Shown here: piece by piece, positions 6,524 through 19,040 of the stretch
Layout: each line of letters opens with the position of its first letter
How positions within the stretch are numbered: the stretch's first letter is position 1
Source of the DNA: Tenacibaculum sp. 190524A05c
Lineage (GTDB): Bacteria; Bacteroidota; Bacteroidia; Flavobacteriales; Flavobacteriaceae
DNA length: 64,000 nucleotides
Assembly (NCBI RefSeq): GCF_964036595.1
Contig: NZ_OZ038523.1
Span: 2,486,501-2,550,500, forward strand
Reading direction: 5' to 3'
Notes under the pieces: model-generated
The model's database searches: none
What the model saw: the letters and a program-made list of their open reading frames with translations, nothing else
Told to the model about the DNA's origin: nothing
Position numbers and translations under genes: made by a program

Positions 6524-7633
6524 CTATACTAAACCATCTCTATCTATTCCCTTAAGTAAAACATCTTCTTTTTCAATAAAAGGATCATACCAATCTCCTT
6601 TTGATCTAGCCCATTCAATCCATTGTTTCTTTTCCTCATCAAAAGTGTTATTTTCTTTTTCTAAACGTTCAAATTTATCAATGTAATTTCTAATATATAG
6701 GTTTTTTTGATGCCTATCTGCTAAGCTAAATAAGTTTTTAAATTCATCAATTTCTTGATTCCTTTTTATTTTGAAGTCTTCCTCTTGTTTCTTTTTAATC
6801 TCATATTGTTTGCGCCATTCCTCCCTTTCAATTCTTTTCTTTTTTTCTTCTTTTGCCCTAAGTTCAATTGTTGCAATTATTGATGATATTTTAGTCTCTA
6901 ATGGATTTTTATCAGAATCTTTCCATTGTCTTTCAGGGTATATATCTTCCAGTTTGAAAGTTAAAACCCCAGATGGCTCTAAATCAAACCTATCCCAACC
7001 ATTATCATTAACTCGTATTCTTTTAAGAGACTCTCTTAACCGTATCTTAATTGGTTCTTCATTAATAACTACACAAGTTCCCCTATCAAATTTTATTTCA
7101 AATCCTTTTTTCTTGAAAGCCTTTATCAAAGTATCCATAATTCTCAACGACCTAGATATATTCTTTTTTGATACTTCTATGTTTAAAATTCCATTTGATG
7201 ACACAATTAAGCCTTTCGAATTACCCCATTCTCTTATTTTCTTATTCTTTAAATCTTTTCTAGCTGATATAATTAAGGGATCAAACTTCGTTATCTTCTC
7301 AGGAACAGTATGCTTTATTGACTTATCATTTTCAACCTGTCTTTTTAAAATTTGAAACTCTGATAAACCTAAATGAATTTCTTTTTCTCCCTCTTTTCTA
7401 ATTTTTAATTCAATTATAATATCATCGTCTCCTTTCGGCAGAGGTGTAACCTCTACTTTCTTGTTAAATTTTATTTTTGACCAATACCCAGATTTAGGAA
7501 ATGGTATATTGTGCTTGATACATATTTTACGTAAACCATTATCAGAATAAGAATACTCCTTAGCTAATTGAACCAATGGTTTTGACCAAACTAAATTATA
7601 AAGTTCTCTCCTGCTAATTTTATTCTCCCTCAT
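6524..7633 (-). CDS. Uncharacterised HTH plus coiled-coil protein, last gene of the defence operon
   Basis: 369 aa, soluble, highly charged. Residues about 8-52 (SRRELYNLVWSKPLVQLAKE ... GLRKICIKHNIPFPKSGYW) look like a helix-turn-helix of a recurrent bacterial family with the pattern R-E-L-Y-x-x-V-W-x-x-P ... G-Y-W, whose function I do not know. A mixed middle region follows, then a Lys/Glu/Arg coiled coil (about 255-300) and an acidic C terminus. No nuclease, kinase or recombinase motif is visible. Its start overlaps the end of the HNH gene by 14 bp, so translational coupling to the ATPase/HNH pair is likely. It could be a third subunit, a regulator, or an unrelated passenger. Confidence 0.7.
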   Translation of the reverse strand: MRENKISRRELYNLVWSKPLVQLAKEYSYSDNGLRKICIKHNIPFPKSGYWSKIKFNKKVEVTPLPKGDDDIIIELKIRKEGEKEIHLGLSEFQILKRQVENDKSIKHTVPEKITKFDPLIISARKDLKNKKIREWGNSKGLIVSSNGILNIEVSKKNISRSLRIMDTLIKAFKKKGFEIKFDRGTCVVINEEPIKIRLRESLKRIRVNDNGWDRFDLEPSGVLTFKLEDIYPERQWKDSDKNPLETKISSIIATIELRAKEEKKKRIEREEWRKQYEIKKKQEEDFKIKRNQEIDEFKNLFSLADRHQKNLYIRNYIDKFERLEKENNTFDEEKKQWIEWARSKGDWYDPFIEKEDVLLKGIDRDGLV

Positions 7634-8681
7634 TTATAATATTCAATTCTTTCAAAATATCCTTTTTCATTTTACTAAAAGGTCTTTTACTAAAATCTTT
7701 TTCATCATAATAAACACCGAAAGCCAATCTATACAATTCTTCTTGTGAAATATTTAAACCATTATAGGTATTAGAACTTAAGATTGAAAGATATCTTTCA
7801 CTATAAGCCTGTTTTATTTTAAGTAATTCTTTCAGTTCCTCGGTATGAGCATTATAAACCTCTTCTATTTTGTAAGACCTCATTGTTCTCCTTACTACGT
7901 GATCGTTATTTGGATATAATAATTTGATTGCAAATCCAGACTTAGTTTTAGAAGAATACCTATAACTAAACTTAAAATCTTTATTATTAATTTTATCTAG
8001 ATAAGGATGAATGTATACACCTATCTTAAAAATCTGATCACCTTTAATAGAAGTATTACATGTTGAACAACTAGGAATTAAATTATAAAATGACAAAGCT
8101 AAGAGTGAAAGTTTCTTTTTGGGATACCAATGATCAAATTGAGGGCGAATAATTTTCTCACCATTCTCAGAAACTACTGTATTGGTATAATTACGATTAC
8201 AATAAGTACATGTATTTTTATCAAGTTTTGATGAAAGAATATAAGCATTATATTTTTTCTCTTTTTTTATAAATGTTGAATATGAAAAAACCTTTAAAAG
8301 CTTTATATTAAGTTTTTTAAACCTTGAAATAAGCCTTTTTTGAGGTATAGTCCTATCAGACTCTTTAATTGAAAGAAAGTTAATATAATCATTAAATTCT
8401 GATAAGCGAAAATGCGTTGCGGAAAGATAAAATCTTTCTAAAACATTCCATAAAAAATCAGGTTTAGCCCTAATAATCTCATCAATTCTTTCCCTCGTTA
8501 AATACCTTTGGATTCTAACTGACAACTCATGTTTAACCTTTCTAGTTTCTGGACAAACTTTACAACTAGAATCATTACACCCAATTCCCGTTAGTCTTTT
8601 ATAAACCAAACAAACAATATTGTTGGCATGCATTTTAATTGCCTGTTGTACAACTAGATTTTCTGGATACAAGTATATCAT
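7620..8681 (-). CDS. HNH endonuclease, Septu PtuB-like
   Basis: 353 aa. The HNH/His-Me finger core is intact: C158-T-Y-C161, the FDHWYPK segment with D183-H184, then LSFYNLIPSCSTCNTSIKG with N200, C205, C208, N209 and K213. The SFYNLIPSC..CN..KG signature is the one seen in PtuB-like nucleases paired with SMC/ABC-type ATPases. An N-terminal Cys cluster (C35, C40, C43) may bind a second zinc. It is longer than a typical PtuB (about 200-250 aa). It lies 6 bp after the ATPase gene and overlaps the next gene. Predicted role: effector nuclease of an anti-phage module; DNA target unknown. Confidence 0.82.
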   Translation of the reverse strand: MIYLYPENLVVQQAIKMHANNIVCLVYKRLTGIGCNDSSCKVCPETRKVKHELSVRIQRYLTRERIDEIIRAKPDFLWNVLERFYLSATHFRLSEFNDYINFLSIKESDRTIPQKRLISRFKKLNIKLLKVFSYSTFIKKEKKYNAYILSSKLDKNTCTYCNRNYTNTVVSENGEKIIRPQFDHWYPKKKLSLLALSFYNLIPSCSTCNTSIKGDQIFKIGVYIHPYLDKINNKDFKFSYRYSSKTKSGFAIKLLYPNNDHVVRRTMRSYKIEEVYNAHTEELKELLKIKQAYSERYLSILSSNTYNGLNISQEELYRLAFGVYYDEKDFSKRPFSKMKKDILKELNIINEGE

Positions 8682-8687
8682 TATTCA

Positions 8688-10616
8688 TTAATTTAAGCCA
8701 TTTAACCTTAATTGAAGATTAGATATCTGAGATGAAAGAATCATTTTTTTAGCTTGATTATTATCTATTAATTCATCCATCATTTCAGCTAGTTTCAATT
8801 GAACTATATGTTCGTCGATCAGCTTTATAATCTTCAAATTCATATCAAACTCTTCTTGTTTAAAGTTATAATCTTCTTTTAATCTAAATTTTCTTTCATT
8901 TTCATTTTCTATCCATCTAATTACTCCATTAATCTTATTCTGAGCAAATTCACCTACTAGAGCCTCATCTGTCTCTCCCATAAAAAACGAATCCTCTAGT
9001 AAATCCGTAATGTTTGCACCAAATGATTTTTTAGTAGTCATAAAATCAGTTGTAGAAGCTATTTTTGTTTGCCCATTCAAATTATATAAATACACAATAT
9101 TAGATGATGGAACATCTGACAATGGAAAGGGGTCGTGAGATGTAAAAACAATCTGAATCTGACTTTTATTTAAAATTTCACCTTCTATTTTAGGAATTTT
9201 AGATTCAAAAATTAATGGTAAAATTTTAACTAACGTATTTACAAATTTCTTTTGCCATTTAGGGTGAAAACCAGAGGTAGCTTCATCAAGTAAAAGTATC
9301 TGAGGTCTATTTTCCTTTAAATGCTCATTTACATAAAAAGAAGAAAGAAGATTCAAAAGATTTTCTTCTCCTTGCGACAGTGAATAAGAAGGCAATACCC
9401 CACCTAATTGAAAATCCACTCTGATCGCAGACTCGCTGTAAATTAGATAGTTATCTTGATTAAAAAAAATATTATTTAACTCTTCTTGTTTAAAAAAGAA
9501 ATTGTTTTCTATAAGTTTATTTAGTCCTTGCAAGGTTATTTCTTCCTTTTTAGGTAATAAACTATACCACTCTAACCCTAACTCTATAAAGTATTTTAAT
9601 TTTTCTCCGTTAGATTCCTTCTCATATTTCTTTTTTATTTGTTTGAGCCAACTTACAACCTTTTCTTCAGAAAGTAATTTTACTTCATCTTCTAAATATG
9701 GCTCGTCAAAAGATTTATCTCTTTTTTTAGACATCCAAATAAACATCAAAACTCTAGACATTACATAAATTTTGATAATAGCATTTAACCTAAAATTAAA
9801 AGAAGTATCATCATACCTACTAAGGAAATTAATTTTTTCGATATACTCCTTTCTATCTATCAACTCCAATAATTTTATATCAAAATCTATATCTTTTCCT
9901 TTCTCACCTTTCTTAATCGCACTTAATTCAATTTCTAATTGCCATAGAACTTCTTCTGATAGTTTATCTATCTTTATTTTTGCATTTTTATATCTAGGAA
10001 AATCATTATAAACTTCTGAAATTTCATCCATTAACTTAGAATTACTAAACATCAAAAGCGCTCTTTGCTGTCTAATTGCATTAAGTTCTAATAAATTTTC
10101 ATATTCTACACTATCAGAAGCTACTTTTGATAAAAAATAATTAGTAGAAGCCTGCGGATTATAATAAGAAAACTTTGGGGAATAAAACCCGTTTGCTTCA
10201 ATATTATAACCATAATGATTTCGTTCATCTAAAATATTTTTTTCAAGAAAAGCAACATTGTTTTTATTAAAATCTAGTTTATTTAGTTTTAAAGTAGGTT
10301 TGCCTAAATAATTATTTTTAATCACTGTTACCTCCTTGTCTCTCTCAAAAAATAATACTACCTCTTTATTAGTAATTAACTCCAATAACATGGAAGTCTT
10401 TCCTACCCCATTACTTCCAACTAAAGCGGATAACAATGAAACATCTTTACCAAAAAAGTCAGAAATGTAATTTTCATTCTCCTTTCTTAATATCGAAATA
10501 CCATTACTAGACACATTGTTAATTTTGTAAAAAAATTCTCCTCCCAGATTAACAACCACGTTTTTTCCAAATTGCCTATGGTCATCTAAATAAAATGCTG
10601 ATAATTTCCAACTCAT
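8688..10616 (-). CDS. AAA/ABC-type ATPase, Septu PtuA-like
   Basis: 642 aa. Walker A GSNGVGKT at residues 67-74; an ABC signature-like SLSQGEENLL near 415; Walker B ILLLDEATSGFHP near 438-450; a switch histidine in FTSHDPFPLSD near 490. The long middle (about 180-370) is helical and charged. No C-terminal TOPRIM motif is visible, so it is not an OLD nuclease or AriA/Gabija type; the following HNH gene is the natural partner. The downstream segment SFGANITDLLEDSFF near 530 is typical of these defence ATPases. The stop lies 6 bp from the HNH start. Likely a sensor/motor controlling the nuclease. Confidence 0.85.
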   Translation of the reverse strand: MSWKLSAFYLDDHRQFGKNVVVNLGGEFFYKINNVSSNGISILRKENENYISDFFGKDVSLLSALVGSNGVGKTSMLLELITNKEVVLFFERDKEVTVIKNNYLGKPTLKLNKLDFNKNNVAFLEKNILDERNHYGYNIEANGFYSPKFSYYNPQASTNYFLSKVASDSVEYENLLELNAIRQQRALLMFSNSKLMDEISEVYNDFPRYKNAKIKIDKLSEEVLWQLEIELSAIKKGEKGKDIDFDIKLLELIDRKEYIEKINFLSRYDDTSFNFRLNAIIKIYVMSRVLMFIWMSKKRDKSFDEPYLEDEVKLLSEEKVVSWLKQIKKKYEKESNGEKLKYFIELGLEWYSLLPKKEEITLQGLNKLIENNFFFKQEELNNIFFNQDNYLIYSESAIRVDFQLGGVLPSYSLSQGEENLLNLLSSFYVNEHLKENRPQILLLDEATSGFHPKWQKKFVNTLVKILPLIFESKIPKIEGEILNKSQIQIVFTSHDPFPLSDVPSSNIVYLYNLNGQTKIASTTDFMTTKKSFGANITDLLEDSFFMGETDEALVGEFAQNKINGVIRWIENENERKFRLKEDYNFKQEEFDMNLKIIKLIDEHIVQLKLAEMMDELIDNNQAKKMILSSQISNLQLRLNGLN

Positions 10617-10639: not shown

Positions 10640-13474
10640 CTAACCCATCCCATTTATAAATGTTTCAACAAAACCAACAATCTTAGTTGTTATCCTCTCA
10701 GCTACCGAAGCTCTTTCTCTTAAACTAGGTCTAACATTCATTAGTCCAATAACATCATCTCTTAAAGGAGCTTTTTCAGTAAATAAATAATTACTAATTA
10801 CATCAACTAATTTTTGATAGTCTAAATTTTCTTCTTCACTAAGCTGTTTAACTGCTTTCTTCTTTTCATTAGTCCAGTATGTATCGAATTCATCTGCTAC
10901 TAATTCAGAGTCTCTAACTAATGGTAGATTTTCTTCAATGAAACGTTCTATTAATTCTTTTTTACTTCTTAATTGTGTATCAGAAGTAAGCATATCAGAT
11001 ATTGTTTTACGCTGTTTTTCTCTTTCTTGTGGCTTCTTTGTTTCAGCAAGTTGGGCAAGGAGTGTTAATATGTAAGCTACATTGATCTCATCTCTTCTAA
11101 TTAACTCAATTTCAAAATCGATATCGTTTAAAATGGATACTTTTTCTTTCTCCTTTTTAACATCATCCCTTATATCTAAATATTTACTTTGATAGTCTTC
11201 AAAATCTTGCTCTGTAATTCCTAAATCATCAAAACTAAATTCGGTAAACGTAGTTAACACATTCTTTAAACGCATTAATTCTCGAAACGCTTTAACAAAC
11301 TCTAGTTTTTCAGTTTCAGAAGGCAAATCATTTACACTATCTACCGTCGGAACAATTTCATACAACTTCTCTACCGATTCTTTAAACTTACTTGTATAAT
11401 CTTCGTATGGCTTAACTACTATTTCTTCTATCGCTTCTTTATTAGAAAAAAGTGTTATAGCATCATCTGTTGCCTTTTTCAAATTTCTAAACGCTACAAC
11501 ATTCCCTTGAGACTTTACCTCATCTAGTATTCTATTTGTTCGAGAGTATGCTTGAATTAAACCATGATATTTAAGGTTTTTATCTACATAAATTGTATTT
11601 AGTAACTTACTATCAAAACCTGTAAGAAACATATTTACGACAAGCAATACATCTACTTGCCTATGTTTAACTCGCTTTCCTATGTCTTGGTAATAAGAAT
11701 AAAATAAATTCGTAGAATAGTTCGTCTGGAACATATCGTTGTAATCTGAAATAAATCCATCTAATTTATCTCTAGTATGAGAATAGACAGGAGCAGGTTC
11801 ATTTACATAAAAGTCTTCAAAATCTTCATCAGGAATAAAACCATTTGCATCTTCATCTAACTCATTAGCTTTATAAGAGAATATAGTAGCTACCCTTAAA
11901 TCATGTTTTCCTTCTTCTTTTTTAGTTTTAAACAACTCATAATACTTTATGAGTGTCTTTACATTATGGACACAAAAAATTGCCGTAAATCTTCTGTTAT
12001 GAGTTTTTCGAGTATGATTGTGAATAATATATTCCGTAACGTTATCTAATCGCTCAGGTGCTTCCATGACCTCTGCTTTATCAATACTATCGACATTGAT
12101 ATCAATTATCTCGTCTTCATCTTTACTCTTGAACGTACTGATGTACTCAATAGCAAACTTTAATACATTCTTATCCCTGATAGCATCCGTAATAACATAC
12201 TTGTGCAAACACTCTTGAAACAAATCTTTAGTCGTACGTTTTCCTAATTTATTTTTAACGGAATTATCTTTAAAAATTGGTGTTCCAGTAAAACCAAATA
12301 ATTGCGCATTTGAGAAAAAATCTTTAATACGATTGTGTGTATCACCAAACTGACTTCGATGACATTCATCAAAAATAAACACCACTCTTTCATTTTTTAA
12401 GGCTTCCATACTAGCCAAATATTTAGGCTTGTATATCGCTGTATTTAATTTTTGAATAGTGGTTACGATTAATTTTGTGTCATCAGAAAACTGTTTTACC
12501 AATTTCCCTGTATTATTTGTTGCATCAATACTACCTTCACTAAAACTATTAAACTCTTTGATGGTCTGATAATCTAAATCTTTACGATCTACGACAAATA
12601 CTACTTTTTTAACTCCTTCTAAATTGGTAAGTATTTGCGCTGTTTTAAATGAGGTTAATGTTTTACCTGAACCTGTTGTGTGCCAGATATACCCAAACTT
12701 AGTACTGTTTTTAACTCGTTCAACTATGGCTTCAGTAGCATAGTATTGATACGGTCGTAATACCATTAAAATTTTTGAGGTATTTAAAACGGTATACTTG
12801 GTTATCATCTTAGAAACATGACAAGGATCTAAAAATCGAGCTGTAAACTCACTAAGTTGTGTTATTATTTTATTCTCTTTATCTGCCCAGTAAAATGTTT
12901 GTTTAAAGGAACGTGCTTTTATAGGATTATTGGCATAATACTTTGTGTTAACCCCATTACTGATGACAAAGAGTTGAATAAACTGAAACAACCCACTACC
13001 TGATTGATAGGAATGGCGTTGGTATCTATTGGTTTGGTTAAAAGCCTCTTTTAATTCTAAACCTCTACGTTTTAATTCTATTTGAACTAAAGGTAAACCG
13101 TTGATAAGTATCGTTACATCATAACGATTGGTATACTTACCTTCCATAGTTATTTGGTGCGTTACTTGGTATTGATTTTTACACCAATGTATTTGATTTA
13201 ATAACTCAATATACCCTGTTGTTCCGTCATCTTTTGCGTAGGTAACTTTATCTCGTAACGTTTTGGCTTTTTCGTATATATTCCCTTTAGATAATACATT
13301 TAAAATTTGTTTAAATTCATTATCTGATAGATTGGTGTTATTATGCTTTTCAAGTTGACTTTTAAGATTAGCTTTTAAATCAACTTCATCCTTAATAAGT
13401 ACTTTTTTATAACCTAACTCTTGTAACTGTTTTACAAGATTTTCTTCTAAAATATATTCTGATTCTTTTGTCAT
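10640..13474 (-). CDS. hsdR: Type I restriction endonuclease subunit R
   Basis: 944 aa. An N-terminal PD-(D/E)xK nuclease is visible as D119 ... E133-L-K135 within RYDVTILINGLPLVQIELK. The SF2 translocase has TTGSGKT at 267-272, the DECH-type box DECHRSQFG at 369-377, FGFTGTPIF and, further on, VVNMFLTGFDSK and QAYSRTNR. The C-terminal helical part binds the methylase core. It resembles EcoR124I-type HsdR. Start at ATG 13474, 4 bp after the GIY-YIG gene. Cleaves unmodified DNA with HsdM and HsdS. All key residues are present, so it is probably active. Confidence 0.95.
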   Translation of the reverse strand: MTKESEYILEENLVKQLQELGYKKVLIKDEVDLKANLKSQLEKHNNTNLSDNEFKQILNVLSKGNIYEKAKTLRDKVTYAKDDGTTGYIELLNQIHWCKNQYQVTHQITMEGKYTNRYDVTILINGLPLVQIELKRRGLELKEAFNQTNRYQRHSYQSGSGLFQFIQLFVISNGVNTKYYANNPIKARSFKQTFYWADKENKIITQLSEFTARFLDPCHVSKMITKYTVLNTSKILMVLRPYQYYATEAIVERVKNSTKFGYIWHTTGSGKTLTSFKTAQILTNLEGVKKVVFVVDRKDLDYQTIKEFNSFSEGSIDATNNTGKLVKQFSDDTKLIVTTIQKLNTAIYKPKYLASMEALKNERVVFIFDECHRSQFGDTHNRIKDFFSNAQLFGFTGTPIFKDNSVKNKLGKRTTKDLFQECLHKYVITDAIRDKNVLKFAIEYISTFKSKDEDEIIDINVDSIDKAEVMEAPERLDNVTEYIIHNHTRKTHNRRFTAIFCVHNVKTLIKYYELFKTKKEEGKHDLRVATIFSYKANELDEDANGFIPDEDFEDFYVNEPAPVYSHTRDKLDGFISDYNDMFQTNYSTNLFYSYYQDIGKRVKHRQVDVLLVVNMFLTGFDSKLLNTIYVDKNLKYHGLIQAYSRTNRILDEVKSQGNVVAFRNLKKATDDAITLFSNKEAIEEIVVKPYEDYTSKFKESVEKLYEIVPTVDSVNDLPSETEKLEFVKAFRELMRLKNVLTTFTEFSFDDLGITEQDFEDYQSKYLDIRDDVKKEKEKVSILNDIDFEIELIRRDEINVAYILTLLAQLAETKKPQEREKQRKTISDMLTSDTQLRSKKELIERFIEENLPLVRDSELVADEFDTYWTNEKKKAVKQLSEEENLDYQKLVDVISNYLFTEKAPLRDDVIGLMNVRPSLRERASVAERITTKIVGFVETFINGMG

Positions 13475-13478
13475 TTTC

Positions 13479-14339
13479 TTATTGATCTCCTAATTGTTGA
13501 TTTTCCCATTCTTTATAAGTAATAGTAGTTCCTTTAACTTTCCAATTTTGAGGACCCGAAATTGGTGTTCCTGTCAAAAAACAGCCTGCTGTGGATGAAC
13601 TGGTAGTAGGATAATCTTCTATAACAAATAGTTTCCCTTCTCTTATTTCGAATATTCCTTTTTCGATAAGAGCATTTCTTTTTTCTCTAATGGTTTCATA
13701 TAGTGACGGACTAGATTTTTCTTTACCTATAGAGCCTTTTTTAATTATAAATAAATCATCTTGGATATAAGCTTCAGCCTTTACAAATCTATTATTCATT
13801 TCAAATTCTGCCACAGCTTTGGTTTTGTCTTGCTTTGTAATAATGGGTTGTAAAATGTTAACACCTGTTGCAGGTAGTATGAATGACAGATTTTCAACAA
13901 ATACTTCCATATCACTAATATCTGGGCGTGGAAGTATACCTGTGTAATCGTTTAAAGATTTTTTATTTTCTAAATTGTAAAAGGTTTTTTCTATCAATTG
14001 AGCACAACGATACTCCAAGTAAGAACAGTGTGTTTTGGTTAGGTTAAAATCCTTCGTTTGTACTAAAATCAATTTATCCCAAAAATCTTTTTTATCATCA
14101 TGATCTTTTAAACGGTTAATGCCGTTCATGGTTTCACCAACATATACTTTTTTTTCTTCATCAGAAACTAAAAAATAAATCCCTGCTTTATCTATATCAT
14201 TCATTTTATATAAATCAGCTAGAGCAGTTCTTGGTGCAGCAATAACGTAGCCTGTCCAATTAATCATCTCAGCTTGAATAATACCATGATGATTCCCTTC
14301 TTCAAAAAATAATTTTACAGTTTTTCCTTTAGTTGTCAT
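13479..14339 (-). CDS. GIY-YIG nuclease-like protein with C-terminal DUF4357-like domain
   Basis: 286 aa. The GIY-YIG core shows G53-I-Y55, VYVGET at 65-70 and R76 in NGINRLKDHD; a conserved Glu lies in the YLEYRCAQLIEK helix. The C terminus, with SSTAGCFLTG and a conserved Trp (NWKVKG), matches the DUF4357 module commonly fused to GIY-YIG proteins beside type I R-M loci. It sits between the second GIY-YIG gene and hsdR. Whether it cuts DNA is unknown; such proteins are frequent hsd passengers. Confidence 0.8.
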   Translation of the reverse strand: MTTKGKTVKLFFEEGNHHGIIQAEMINWTGYVIAAPRTALADLYKMNDIDKAGIYFLVSDEEKKVYVGETMNGINRLKDHDDKKDFWDKLILVQTKDFNLTKTHCSYLEYRCAQLIEKTFYNLENKKSLNDYTGILPRPDISDMEVFVENLSFILPATGVNILQPIITKQDKTKAVAEFEMNNRFVKAEAYIQDDLFIIKKGSIGKEKSSPSLYETIREKRNALIEKGIFEIREGKLFVIEDYPTTSSSTAGCFLTGTPISGPQNWKVKGTTITYKEWENQQLGDQ

Positions 14340-14356: not shown

Positions 14357-14839
14357 TTATTTTTCTAATATTCTGTTTATCATTGCTAAATCTCTTTTTC
14401 CTATTTTATTGTAGAGTAAGTCAAATTTTTCTCCTTTGTTCTTATGAATTAAGTAGCTTTCAGCTTCAGATCTTCCAAAATCGATATAATAAAATGTCAT
14501 TTTAATATTTCTCTCAAAATATGCTGTCAACCTCACTTCTTCCTCCTCTGAAAAAACTCCTTTTTTGTTAACATCAGTTTCAAATAGTTTTCTACCTCTT
14601 TGTTTTCTAAATGTATGATTATAAGTTCTTCTTATATCCTTCATCCTTTTTAATAAACTTGAGGTTTCACCTATATATACCAAATCTCCATCGTCAAATA
14701 AAGCATAAATAGCTGGTCTATCTTTAAAATTTCTATTTGCCCAATCCAAAGTATACTCAAACTTTATTCTTTTTGATGTTTTTAAATGGTTATCAATTTC
14801 ATTTAAATAATTCAATATTTCTAGATTAGAGAACTTCAT
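14357..14839 (-). CDS. Small GIY-YIG nuclease-like protein
   Basis: 160 aa, almost only the nuclease domain: AIYALFDDGDLVYIGETSSL at residues 43-62 contains both GIY and YIG parts, followed by basic residues (LLKRMKDIRRTYNHTFRKQR) and a helix with Glu (AESYLIHKNK). An N-terminal helix of about 35 residues precedes the core. It shares fold but little sequence with the neighbouring 286-aa GIY-YIG protein, so it is not a recent duplication. It lies 17 bp upstream of that gene and 3 bp downstream of the membrane-protein gene. Confidence 0.75.
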   Translation of the reverse strand: MKFSNLEILNYLNEIDNHLKTSKRIKFEYTLDWANRNFKDRPAIYALFDDGDLVYIGETSSLLKRMKDIRRTYNHTFRKQRGRKLFETDVNKKGVFSEEEEVRLTAYFERNIKMTFYYIDFGRSEAESYLIHKNKGEKFDLLYNKIGKRDLAMINRILEK

Positions 14840-14842
14840 ATA

Positions 14843-16174
14843 CTATCTATATTTTCTAAAAGCTTGAACTGTTTGATAAATTCCATAACCAACAAAAATT
14901 CTTCCTAAAAAATCACAGATATAAAAACACTCACCTAAAGTATACTCAGAAAAATCATCTCCTAAATAATCGAATTTATGAGTAGGGTTTAAAAAGTTTA
15001 AAAAGTGAGATATATTATCATCTACAATGAATATATCTCCTGAAAATAAATCAAAAGTGTATTTAGAAGTTCCTAACATAGATAAACTAAAGAAAATACA
15101 GCCAATAACAAACGTGAAAACAAATCCTACAAAGTAGGATTTTCCATGCCCATTAGATAAGAAATTTAAAACTTGAATTACCTGATTTGTAAACGCTTTT
15201 AATTTTGAATACAGAAAATATAACCAGTGTTCATTTTCTCCTATTTCTTTTCTAAAAAACTCATTACTAAGAGCTTTAGATTGAGCAGAACGTTCTAGAT
15301 ACTTGAAATCTAATGCTCTAATATTATTGGACTGCCCATCATAATATTTTTTGATAATCCTATACGTTTCCTGCTTATTCTTTAAAGGAATATTCCCATT
15401 TTCAGATACATCTTGTTCGTAATCATTTTCGCTCTTTGGTTCTGAATGGTTAAAGTACTTTACTTTTAAGTCAAATAAGTTTAAATCTCCTTTTAAGATC
15501 GCTAAAGATAAATCTAAACCCTTTTCAAATTTTGCCCCCCTAAAGATACTAACACTGTTTAATAAGGTATATGTAAACAGTACATTTTCCTTAAATATTG
15601 CAGCAGAAAAAACTGTAGTCTCTAAAAAATCTGTTTTGTAAAAAATTACAGGCTTTATAAAAGTTGTATTCCAAAAATCTGCTAAACTATTGAAAGTTGT
15701 ATTTCTAAAATTAGCTTCATTTACAATACAATTGTGAAAGCGAACTTTACCCTTCTTTGTATTTTCTTCTGAACCAAAAATAGCATCCTCAAAATTAACA
15801 CTTAGAATATTACTATCTCTAAATTTTAGACTACCTGAATACCGCCATACTCTTACTACATTTTCAATAATACAATCATTATTAAACTCTATATTTCTAT
15901 CTGAATGACCTATTGTTATTTTTTGTTTAAAAACACAATTACTAAAAATTAAGCTACCAATATTTTGAAGTGCTTCCGCTTCCATTGAATTAATTACTTC
16001 ATTTGAAAATGGTAAGTTCAATTCAAAATCAATTTCGATTGCTTTGAAATCATCCTTTTCCAAAGACCAATTAAGAGGACTACCATACTCATCAACTTCT
16101 TCTATTACAAACTTTAGATCCTCCTTCCAATACTCTATTAACTCGTGTATATTTTTAGCAATTCTTTTTGCCAT
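14843..16174 (-). CDS. Pentapeptide-repeat-like protein with C-terminal membrane segments
   Basis: 443 aa. Residues about 130-240 show a five-residue phenylalanine rhythm (ANFRNTTF NSLADF WNTTF IKPVIF YKTDF, then VFSAAIF) as in quadrilateral beta-helix pentapeptide proteins. A helical linker (about 270-340) follows, then a strong membrane segment (YFVGFVFTFVIGCIFFSLSM near 345-365) and a second hydrophobic region near the C terminus (CFYICDFLGRIFVGYGIY). No catalytic motif is recognised. It sits between hsdS and the GIY-YIG genes with 9-bp and 3-bp gaps, so it is made with the R-M enzymes. A membrane protein in an hsd operon is unusual; pore or abortive-infection roles are speculation. Confidence 0.65.
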   Translation of the reverse strand: MAKRIAKNIHELIEYWKEDLKFVIEEVDEYGSPLNWSLEKDDFKAIEIDFELNLPFSNEVINSMEAEALQNIGSLIFSNCVFKQKITIGHSDRNIEFNNDCIIENVVRVWRYSGSLKFRDSNILSVNFEDAIFGSEENTKKGKVRFHNCIVNEANFRNTTFNSLADFWNTTFIKPVIFYKTDFLETTVFSAAIFKENVLFTYTLLNSVSIFRGAKFEKGLDLSLAILKGDLNLFDLKVKYFNHSEPKSENDYEQDVSENGNIPLKNKQETYRIIKKYYDGQSNNIRALDFKYLERSAQSKALSNEFFRKEIGENEHWLYFLYSKLKAFTNQVIQVLNFLSNGHGKSYFVGFVFTFVIGCIFFSLSMLGTSKYTFDLFSGDIFIVDDNISHFLNFLNPTHKFDYLGDDFSEYTLGECFYICDFLGRIFVGYGIYQTVQAFRKYR

Positions 16175-16183
16175 AATTTAGTT

Positions 16184-17476
16184 TTAAACAAACATCTGTT
16201 GTAACAATCCTTTTTTAAACTCTTTTGTTTCTTCTATTTGTGTATGTACTAATTGTATTTTGTCATCGATAGCCGATAAAAAGTTGGCTATTTTTAATTG
16301 TTCTTCCATACTAGGAAGGTTAATCGTTAATTTAATAAAAGCCGATTTAGAAATATTATATCTTGTACTACCTTGAGCTAAAGGAATTATTTTCTTCTTA
16401 AATTCTTTGCTACGAAATATATACTGAGAAAAAGCTGGAAAAAGTATTTTTAAATCTGTTCTAAAACCAAAACAAAAACTATTCAAGTACATTTCATCTA
16501 CATCTTCTAATAAAACAGATGAAGTACCTATTTCATCTGGTGTTTCCGAAGATGTTGTAAAAAACACATCTCCATATTGTACATTTGTTTGATTATCATC
16601 TTTTGATATATCAACTAATCCACATTTTCCTATATCTATCTTTGAACTATCAAAAATCTGTTTGTATTGAATATAAGGTTTTCCTTGACCGAAATCTTTT
16701 TTAGTTTTCCCTGTTAAACCATTTATTGTATATCCTATATCATCCAACTTTTTCTCTTCCCAATCAGGGTACTCGTTCCCATCATCATCACCTTCGACTT
16801 CGCTCAGGTCAGGTTTAAATCGTAACTCTTGACTAAAGATTTTTTGCATTATTCCCTTTTTATATTCTTCTAAAAGAGCTTTCTTTTTTTGTAGTGATTC
16901 TATTTTTTTATCTACTGAAGATAGGAAGGATGTTATTTTTTGCTGTTCTTTAATTGAAGGAATATTGACTTTAATATTTTTTATATCCTCTACTCCCACA
17001 TTTGATTGATTTCCAGTCCCTCCCTTACTTTCATTAAAAAAATAATGCAAAAATTTATTAGTTTTAAGTTCATAGTTTATAAAACCATTTACAGAAACCC
17101 CTTCAATCTCCCTTAATCTAATTAATCTTTGATTTAGTAAATACCTATCATCTAAGGGAATATTAATAGAATAGCCATAATCTTTTTTACCAACTGTTCC
17201 CGTTAGAGTAAGAACAGTATCTCCTTTTTTTAATAAAAACTTCCTATGCTTTTCTTCCAAGTCATTCCAAAAAGATGGATTTCTATCTAACCTTAATTCG
17301 TTTTTATAAACATTAGACATTTTGATTAGTTGATACTTTCCTTGATCATTTGACATTTCAAAACTTTTGAAAGCATTACCTGATTGAAAATCTATAAAAT
17401 CTCCCATTCTTTCTTTCTTCCAGAGATTTGAAAACTCCTTGAACCTTAATAAAGGTACTTGTTTAACATAACTCAT
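16184..17476 (-). CDS. hsdS: Type I restriction specificity subunit S
   Basis: 430 aa, the usual two-target-domain layout. Half one ends with the conserved helix IKEQQKITSFLSSVDKKIES...YKKGIMQKIF (about 175-215), half two with the matching MEEQLKIANFLSAIDDKIQ...FKKGLLQQMF at the C terminus. Each half starts with a target-recognition domain that sets one part of a bipartite site. The central linker between them contains LSEVEG, encoded by a REP-like palindrome (16791-16808). Only one hsdS is present and no inverted hsdS fragments are seen, so shufflon-type switching is not indicated. The gap to hsdM is one base. Confidence 0.93.
   Translation of the reverse strand: MSYVKQVPLLRFKEFSNLWKKERMGDFIDFQSGNAFKSFEMSNDQGKYQLIKMSNVYKNELRLDRNPSFWNDLEEKHRKFLLKKGDTVLTLTGTVGKKDYGYSINIPLDDRYLLNQRLIRLREIEGVSVNGFINYELKTNKFLHYFFNESKGGTGNQSNVGVEDIKNIKVNIPSIKEQQKITSFLSSVDKKIESLQKKKALLEEYKKGIMQKIFSQELRFKPDLSEVEGDDDGNEYPDWEEKKLDDIGYTINGLTGKTKKDFGQGKPYIQYKQIFDSSKIDIGKCGLVDISKDDNQTNVQYGDVFFTTSSETPDEIGTSSVLLEDVDEMYLNSFCFGFRTDLKILFPAFSQYIFRSKEFKKKIIPLAQGSTRYNISKSAFIKLTINLPSMEEQLKIANFLSAIDDKIQLVHTQIEETKEFKKGLLQQMFV
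16791..16808 (-). repeat. REP-like palindrome inside the hsdS linker
   Basis: On the minus strand CCTGAGCGAAGTCGAAGG, a short imperfect palindrome I recognise as a dispersed repeat in many bacterial genomes. Here it is in frame and encodes Leu-Ser-Glu-Val-Glu-Gly between the two HsdS halves. Confidence 0.5.
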
Positions 17477-17477
17477 A

Positions 17478-19040
17478 CTAAAAAGGAGTTTTAATATTCA
17501 GTTGTTTACAAAAGTCAGTAATGGTTGTGTCTACTGTTGTAATTTCCTTTTCTAACGTTTGTAATTGATTAGCAACCAAATCTAAATCTACAGGTACTTC
17601 TTCTTCAAACGTATCTACATAACGAGGAATGTTTAAATTATAGTCATTTTCTACAACCTCATCTATAGAGGCTACATAACTAAACTTATCCATAGTTGTA
17701 CGTTCTCTATAGGTATTTACAATTTTATAAACATGCTCTTCTAATAACTTATTTTTATTCCCTTCTTTTTCAAATTCCTTAGAAGCATCAATAAATAAAA
17801 TATTCTCATTATGCACTCTACATTTACTTAGCACCAATATACAAGTTGGTATTCCTGTTCCAAAAAAGATATTAGGAGGCAAACCAATAACGGCATCTAA
17901 ATAGTTAAGATTTTCAATTACATATTGTCGTATGGTTCCTTCAGCAGCACCTCTAAACAATACACCATGTGGTAACACACAAGCCATAGTTCCATTCTCC
18001 GCTAAGTGGTGTACCATGTGTTGTACAAAAGCAAAATCGGCTTTACTAGTTGGTGCTAGTTTTCCGTATTGACTAAAACGATCGTCATTTTCATTTAACG
18101 GATTATTTTTACCTTCCCACTTTGCAGAAAAAGGTGGATTAGCTACAATAGCTTCAAAACGTAAGTCTTTATGTTGAGGCTCTTTTAATGTATCTTCTTG
18201 TTTGATATCAAACTGACGGTAATGTACATCATGTAAAATCATGTTCATACGAGCTAAGTTATACGTAGTTCTGTTTAACTCTTGTCCGTAAAACTCGTCA
18301 ACCTCAACTTCTCTAGCCACACGTAACAATAAAGATCCTGATCCACACGTAGGATCGTACACATTCTTTAAACGTTTTTTTCCTGTAGTAACAATTTGGG
18401 CTAATATTTTAGATACTTGTTGTGGTGTATAAAATTCTCCTGCTTTTTTTCCTGCTCCACTTGCAAACTGAGAAATTAAATATTCGTAGGCATCACCTAA
18501 AACATCTGCTTCTGAATCCTTTAATGCAAAGTCTATTTTATCTAAATGCGATAATACTCTTGCAATTAATGTATTTCTTGCATTAGGACTTCTTCCTAAT
18601 TTAGTACTATTTAGATCTAGGTCTTCAAAAAGTTGATTAAAGTCATCTTCACTTTCAGTACCCATAGTACTTTGTTCAATACTATTTAGAATTTGTTCTA
18701 AATCTTCTAATATAAAATTGCTTTCGTTTTCTATATCGGCATTTCCTTTTTTAGCCATAGAACTAAATAATTCTTCTGGCTTTAAAAAGTACCCTAGTTT
18801 AATTAAAGATTCTTCTCTAATCGCTTCTAAATCTTCAGTATTCGTAACTTTTACATAGTCTTTAACTTTTTCTGTTTCTAATAAGGTATTAGCGTATATG
18901 TATTGTTTTTCTGAAAGGTATTTGTAAAATATAAATCCAAGTATATAATCTCTAAACTCATCTGCATCCATTTTACCACGCAATTCGTTGGCAATATTCC
19001 ATAATTGAGCTTCGAGTAATTTCTTTTGTTCTTCTGACAT
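17478..19040 (-). CDS. hsdM: Type I DNA methyltransferase subunit M
   Basis: 520 aa. N-terminal HsdM helical domain (about 10-150), then the N6-adenine methylase: SAM motif I DPTCGSGSLLLR near 228-240 and catalytic motif IV NPPFSAKW near 300. Phe/Tyr and Pro are conserved. It is the first gene of the island operon. A minus-strand terminator at 19133-19165 blocks read-through from outside, so the operon should have its own promoter in the ~95 bp upstream; a TTTGTTTGGC stretch is there but no clean TAnnTTTG match. Confidence 0.95.
   Translation of the reverse strand: MSEEQKKLLEAQLWNIANELRGKMDADEFRDYILGFIFYKYLSEKQYIYANTLLETEKVKDYVKVTNTEDLEAIREESLIKLGYFLKPEELFSSMAKKGNADIENESNFILEDLEQILNSIEQSTMGTESEDDFNQLFEDLDLNSTKLGRSPNARNTLIARVLSHLDKIDFALKDSEADVLGDAYEYLISQFASGAGKKAGEFYTPQQVSKILAQIVTTGKKRLKNVYDPTCGSGSLLLRVAREVEVDEFYGQELNRTTYNLARMNMILHDVHYRQFDIKQEDTLKEPQHKDLRFEAIVANPPFSAKWEGKNNPLNENDDRFSQYGKLAPTSKADFAFVQHMVHHLAENGTMACVLPHGVLFRGAAEGTIRQYVIENLNYLDAVIGLPPNIFFGTGIPTCILVLSKCRVHNENILFIDASKEFEKEGNKNKLLEEHVYKIVNTYRERTTMDKFSYVASIDEVVENDYNLNIPRYVDTFEEEVPVDLDLVANQLQTLEKEITTVDTTITDFCKQLNIKTPF

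Follow-up and report, generated by a model that had tools for sequence, protein, structure and literature searches.

HalA, the effector of the Hailong anti-phage system, is represented by PDB 9nyi and NCBIfam NF051894, its description being attributed to Tan et al. 2025. HalA is described as an ion channel that is blocked by the poly-dA of HalB (PMC13275509), a block that a phage exonuclease relieves (PMC12657230). PrrC is a latent anticodon nuclease encoded within the type IC operon EcoprrI; it is silenced by the EcoprrI restriction-modification (R-M) enzyme, and inhibition of this enzyme by T4 Stp leads to PrrC release (PMC3874165, PMC2610378). A 2025 review treats PrrC and PARIS, both of which act on tRNA, as R-M guardians and mentions the hypothesis that accessory genes of R-M loci are toxins (PMC12707154).

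Here we analysed a 64,000-nucleotide stretch of DNA from Tenacibaculum sp. 190524A05c (the window), in which a gene that we call PPTM is embedded in a type I R-M operon. We see about an even chance that its product, a putative membrane channel, is a latent effector that guards type I R-M as a membrane analogue of PrrC. The gene order on the minus strand is hsdM, hsdS, PPTM, a small GIY-YIG-like gene, a GIY-YIG/DUF4357 gene and hsdR, with gaps of 9 bp between hsdS and PPTM, 3 bp between PPTM and the small GIY-YIG-like gene, then 17 bp, and 4 bp before hsdR (Table 1). The original prediction had correctly located PPTM between hsdS and two GIY-YIG genes; since hsdR lies beyond these, PPTM is within the R-M operon and not at its edge. 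Judging by the EcoR124_C domain of HsdR, the operon is type IC-like. Relatives of the small GIY-YIG-like protein occupy the equivalent slot of other operons (L050 and L200). Directly behind hsdR there is a further two-gene set encoding an AAA ATPase and an HNH protein.

Table 1. Features of the R-M operon and its surroundings, in coordinates of the window.
Feature	Position	Strand	Evidence	Remark
PPTM	14843..16174	-	ORF of 443 aa with ATG start; Pfam, AF2, homologue position	Proposed latent membrane effector
PPTM beta-helix, best conserved part	15440..15889	-	Conservation and AF2 model	About residues 96-245
PPTM membrane domain	14846..15169	-	Conservation, hydropathy, AF2	About residues 336-443; in order: SN-G-S motif, TM1, FLNPTH loop, TM2, C-terminal QAFRK motif
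hsdS, specificity subunit	16184..17476	-	Methylase_S, E 6e-34	Directly upstream of PPTM
hsdM, methylase subunit	17478..19040	-	N6_Mtase, E 8e-111; HsdM_N	
Small GIY-YIG-like protein	14357..14839	-	GIY-YIG, E 9e-4, below Pfam cut-off	
GIY-YIG / DUF4357 protein	13479..14339	-	PADLOC candidate PDC-S14	
hsdR, restriction subunit	10640..13474	-	EcoR124_C, E 2.6e-73; HSDR_N, SWI2_SNF2	
AAA ATPase + HNH protein pair	7620..10616	-	PADLOC candidate PDC-M62A/B, E 1.6e-44 and 2.4e-54	Directly behind hsdR

Three stretches of PPTM match Pfam Pentapeptide_3 above the cut-off (E 7e-14), and 56 of 57 homologues match this family too; no other Pfam family reached its cut-off in PPTM, and PADLOC returned no match for it. 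An AlphaFold2 (AF2) model built with the 57 homologues reached pLDDT 94.1 and pTM 0.88, while the one made with 6 homologues alone was poor (pLDDT 66). In the former, short beta-helix strands extend over about residues 74-245 and are followed by helices at 249-306 and 317-341, a hydrophobic helix at 347-367, short loop helices at 383-394 and a last helix at 415-441. The beta-helix-like segment read from the letters alone in the original prediction, which had named structure prediction as a check, is thus borne out by Pfam and AF2 as a pentapeptide beta-helix, and its assignment of C-terminal membrane helices was right as well. Hydropathy gives one strong membrane helix, TM1, at residues ~346-367 (peak 2.34). 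Helix TM2 at the end of the protein is weakly to moderately hydrophobic, and the hairpin together with the conserved C-terminal motif suggests that it too is a membrane helix.

Conservation differs along the protein. The N-terminal piece is highly variable across homologues (mean top-residue frequency 0.19), and the membrane domain is the most conserved part, with a frequency of 0.70 at residues 414-443. Three stretches are the best conserved: SN-x-x-G-x-S precedes TM1, the loop contains FLNPTH, and the C-terminus carries GRIFxGYGxYQTxQAFRK. With 8 D/E versus 2 K/R, the loop between TM1 and TM2 is acidic, and the C-terminal tail is basic; this charge pattern would suit a hairpin whose two ends are inside and whose acidic loop is outside. 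A K+ channel fold was also considered and rejected, as Ion_trans_2 gave no match among PPTM and its homologues and the loop reads FLNPTH in place of a TVGYG-type selectivity filter.

Known pentapeptide proteins that mimic DNA are small, soluble and acidic. It had been suggested at the outset that PPTM might likewise mimic DNA; its beta-helix would then inhibit or regulate a DNA-binding protein, as Qnr and MfpA do with gyrase. A pentapeptide beta-helix is present, and single weak QnrD and QnrA matches appeared among the 57 members, but the PPTM beta-helix is charge-neutral (18 K+R versus 18 D+E), and the protein has a membrane anchor and a conserved C-terminus that resembles a channel. The suggestion finds no support here, and we consider this explanation highly improbable.

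A single-sequence scan of genome contigs with full-length PPTM gave no match, and a whole-protein search drew many short, unrelated pentapeptide proteins, so the C-terminal domain alone was used as the query. An alignment search with this domain over GTDB genomes yielded 98 relatives, and 80 loci were kept, nearly all of them from Bacteroidota. The family is found in 28 of 397 genomes of a family-wide sample and in 11 of 395 of a phylum-wide one; it is rare in viral contigs, where a single match was obtained. Type I R-M loci host 32 of the 70 full-length relatives, and an hsd gene is present within 1.5 kb of 31 of these 70, compared with 0 of 24 short pentapeptide proteins. At 22 distinct loci (L196 being a duplicate of L054) a PPTM-family gene stands between hsdS and hsdR and is read in the same direction; its distance from the preceding gene ranges from -4 to +91 bp, with a median of about 7 bp, and is usually within about 12 bp. 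R-M linkage is clustered on the family tree, requiring 10 changes of label versus 23.2 when labels are shuffled; most R-M-linked members belong to one large clade and a few stand apart. The family-wide whole-genome sample, which was drawn without similarity ranking, shows R-M linkage at 10 of its 30 loci.

To what extent does the family travel with the restriction enzyme? Across 21 operons the correlation between HsdM and HsdR distances is 0.97; distances of the PPTM family correlate with those of HsdM/HsdR at r 0.55-0.58 (permutation p 0.0005) and with those of HsdS at 0.22. The family has in part been inherited together with the core of the enzyme, yet it is exchangeable. About half of the relatives are found away from R-M loci, many of them apparently solitary, so a member of the family need not be linked to R-M. 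Homologues widespread away from defence genes had been named in the original prediction as an observation that would refute it; this applies in part, as about half are not beside hsd, but several of these adjoin other defence genes.

To look at the hsdS-hsdR interval itself, we sampled 29 loci in Flavobacteriaceae genomes that encode close relatives of HsdM, chosen without reference to PPTM. Among the 26 loci where it was readable, 3 carry the PPTM family, 3 are empty, and the rest contain other genes. A Pfam scan of ten slot genes, taken from the sampled sister operons and from PPTM-bearing operons, revealed Abi_2, Fic, TIR_2, PDDEXK_4, DUF4268/NucS-like and DUF3800 domains; HEPN and DUF2971 were each matched weakly by one gene, and two genes had no family; GIY-YIG and RhuM genes were likewise found in this slot. 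The genes of this accessory slot are interchangeable, and many of them encode toxin- or nuclease-type domains. Proteins of one family, 352-378 aa long, also recur in the slot (L054:8201-9259, L196:3922-4980 and L195:6731-7867), the L054 member having no Pfam match.

A slot that houses so many unrelated genes could hold PPTM as a neutral passenger, or as an independent defence gene with nothing but transcription and mobility in common with its neighbours. Such a reading agrees with the many solitary relatives and with the loose tracking of HsdM/R by PPTM, yet it sits poorly with the very tight spacing and overlap with hsdS, the significant co-inheritance with HsdM/HsdR and the strong phylogenetic clustering of R-M linkage, and we regard it as improbable. 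We find it similarly doubtful that PPTM is a tether, not itself a toxin, by which the R-M complex is kept at the inner membrane close to where DNA enters. A cytosolic repeat scaffold with a membrane anchor, co-transcribed with hsdS, would suit this role, but the conservation of the membrane domain exceeds the needs of an anchor, PPTM is missing from most sister operons, and the family also occurs without R-M.

Several relatives are located next to defence genes of other kinds. One lies 11 bp upstream of a gene for a SIR2-fused long pAgo (L079:9272-13653), with an identical gene order at L084, and another lies 12 bp downstream of LmuB/LmuC of an ABC-3C Lamassu (L105:6807-10486), of which it may be the effector. 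A PPTM-family ORF split in two is found downstream of Drt2 (L066), and a relative follows hipA at L037. At L031:802-14092, hsdRMS, a type III-A retron (PRTase, small ORF and RT), a PPTM relative and mcrBC stand in a row. This mixture of contexts fits a modular effector. In two loci without hsd the relatives adjoin a membrane-like protein of 236-256 aa with a 'SISHYxY' motif in common (L043:8491-9201 and L049:10495-11265), which may represent a second partner type; the L043 protein had no Pfam or PADLOC match.

When the AF2 model was searched against the PDB with Foldseek, the sole match at E <= 0.001 was HalA with oligodeoxyadenylate (9nyi; E 1.9e-5, probability 1.00), which spans 416 alignment columns with low TM-scores of 0.25/0.31. 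At the sequence level, PDB searches with PPTM gave nothing, or the pentapeptide region and chance matches. The NCBIfam HalA profile matched 4 of 57 members weakly (E <= 0.01), PPTM of the window not being among them, and two of the matches scored 12-15 bits against the NF051894 cut-off of 250 bits. Comparison of the PPTM membrane domain with two HalA sequences by hhalign was not significant, the best local alignment falling at SN-x-x-G-x-S. A search for HalA homologues in phages, plasmids and viral contigs found one, on a Sulfitobacter plasmid, where it is followed by a nucleotidyltransferase-like ORF; the viral Foldseek search gave one match under 0.001, an uninformative beta-helix 'pectate lyase'. 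No HalB nucleotidyltransferase was found among the operon genes of the window or at R-M-linked loci; at L059 a small ORF upstream of a PPTM relative was judged by eye to be nucleotidyltransferase-like. An outright identification of PPTM as HalA was rejected, given the lack of HalB and scores far below the NF051894 cut-off. That PPTM works like HalA is plausible.

The same fold match provides the chief rival to R-M guarding, namely that PPTM forms a HalA-type channel whose gate responds to nucleic acid itself, such as degraded or single-stranded DNA, and not to contact with the R-M complex. Restriction, host or phage nucleases would alter the ligand and the channel would report the change. The best fold match is, after all, HalA with its oligodeoxyadenylate bound, the poly-dA block and its relief by phage exonuclease described for HalA supply a precedent, and some relatives stand beside enzymes that synthesise DNA or handle nucleic acids (Drt2, retron RT and pAgo). 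Against this are the lack of a nucleotidyltransferase partner, the full HalA cut-off that is never met and a similarity to HalA that is weak outside the beta-helix. We consider direct gating by nucleic acid unlikely, though the strongest of the alternatives.

The reading that we favour, a guardian of type I R-M, draws on the recurrent slot, the tight gaps, the clustering on the tree and the toxin-rich company in the slot, as well as on co-inheritance, the type IC HsdR with its PrrC precedent, the HalA fold and the pAgo and Lamassu neighbours. The predicted fold and the same operon position in many related bacteria suggest that PPTM probably serves as a kill-switch in support of restriction when a virus disables it. 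The beta-helix and N-terminus would reside in the cytosol and be kept silent by the R-M complex or by R-M products. A phage that inactivates the R-M enzyme with an antirestriction protein, or escapes it otherwise, would cause the release of PPTM, which would then act, probably as an oligomer, by opening a pore through its C-terminal hairpin (TM1, FLNPTH re-entrant loop and TM2); the pore would depolarise and stop the infected cell. The gene, its predicted fold, its slot with the toxin-rich company and its co-inheritance are results of this analysis; the toxicity, the pore formation, the control by R-M and the gating by the R-M complex are inferred. Of the earlier proposal of a membrane effector serving an abortive response, it can be said that it gains support from the recurrence in the hsdS-hsdR slot in many genera, from the toxin- and nuclease-type slot genes and from HalA being the sole significant PDB fold match.

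Several observations count against a guardian: about half of the relatives occur elsewhere than at R-M loci, and many look solitary; just 3 of 26 readable sister operons carry the family; the TM-scores with HalA are low and the membrane domain has no significant HalA profile similarity; and the second membrane helix is weakly hydrophobic.

More speculatively, it is possible, though we would not count on it, that the family comprises uncatalogued HalA-like beta-helix membrane channels that serve as interchangeable death effectors. Its main clade would be wired into type I R-M operons as a pore guardian, opening once restriction is blocked or gives rise to DNA fragments, and elsewhere its members would serve pAgo, Lamassu, retron or DRT systems. 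If true, a guardian that forms a membrane pore, has a HalA-like fold and occupies the slot of PrrC would imply that Bacteroidota type I R-M operons carry a swappable effector slot, and would connect R-M with the nucleic-acid-gated channels described recently. The family has no name in PADLOC (2023), Pfam or NCBIfam and has accordingly been missed by annotation with them, and our literature search found no description of a pentapeptide protein with hsd or as an anti-phage channel. PPTM thus belongs to an unnamed effector-like family in an arrangement of a known kind, the R-M guardian slot, and its output is probably also of a known kind, a HalA-like channel.

The pentapeptide beta-helix of PPTM is shared with the soluble proteins MfpA, AlbG and Qnr, which have neither its helical linker nor its membrane domain, and differs in not being acidic. 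The rlo genes (e.g. rloC), restriction-linked ORFs of Campylobacter, are accessory inserts in type I R-M loci as PPTM is, but RloC is an ABC-ATPase tRNase and PPTM is of a different protein family. HalA and the PPTM model appear to have in common a pentapeptide region, then helices and a C-terminal membrane hairpin, in a collinear full-length match with low TM-scores, and the Sulfitobacter HalA homologue shows the same order of parts; the pore-loop sequences are FLFGYTN in HalA and FLNPTH in PPTM, and unlike HalA, PPTM is embedded in R-M operons without a HalB nucleotidyltransferase. PrrC and PPTM are both accessory genes inside a type IC or type IC-like hsd operon, in the case of PPTM between hsdS and hsdR. 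PrrC carries ABC ATPase and anticodon-nuclease domains, for neither of which Pfam gave a match in PPTM or its homologues, and the predicted output of PPTM is the membrane. PPTM would resemble PrrC in being operon-embedded, latent and guarded, with a HalA-type membrane output taking the place of tRNA cleavage.
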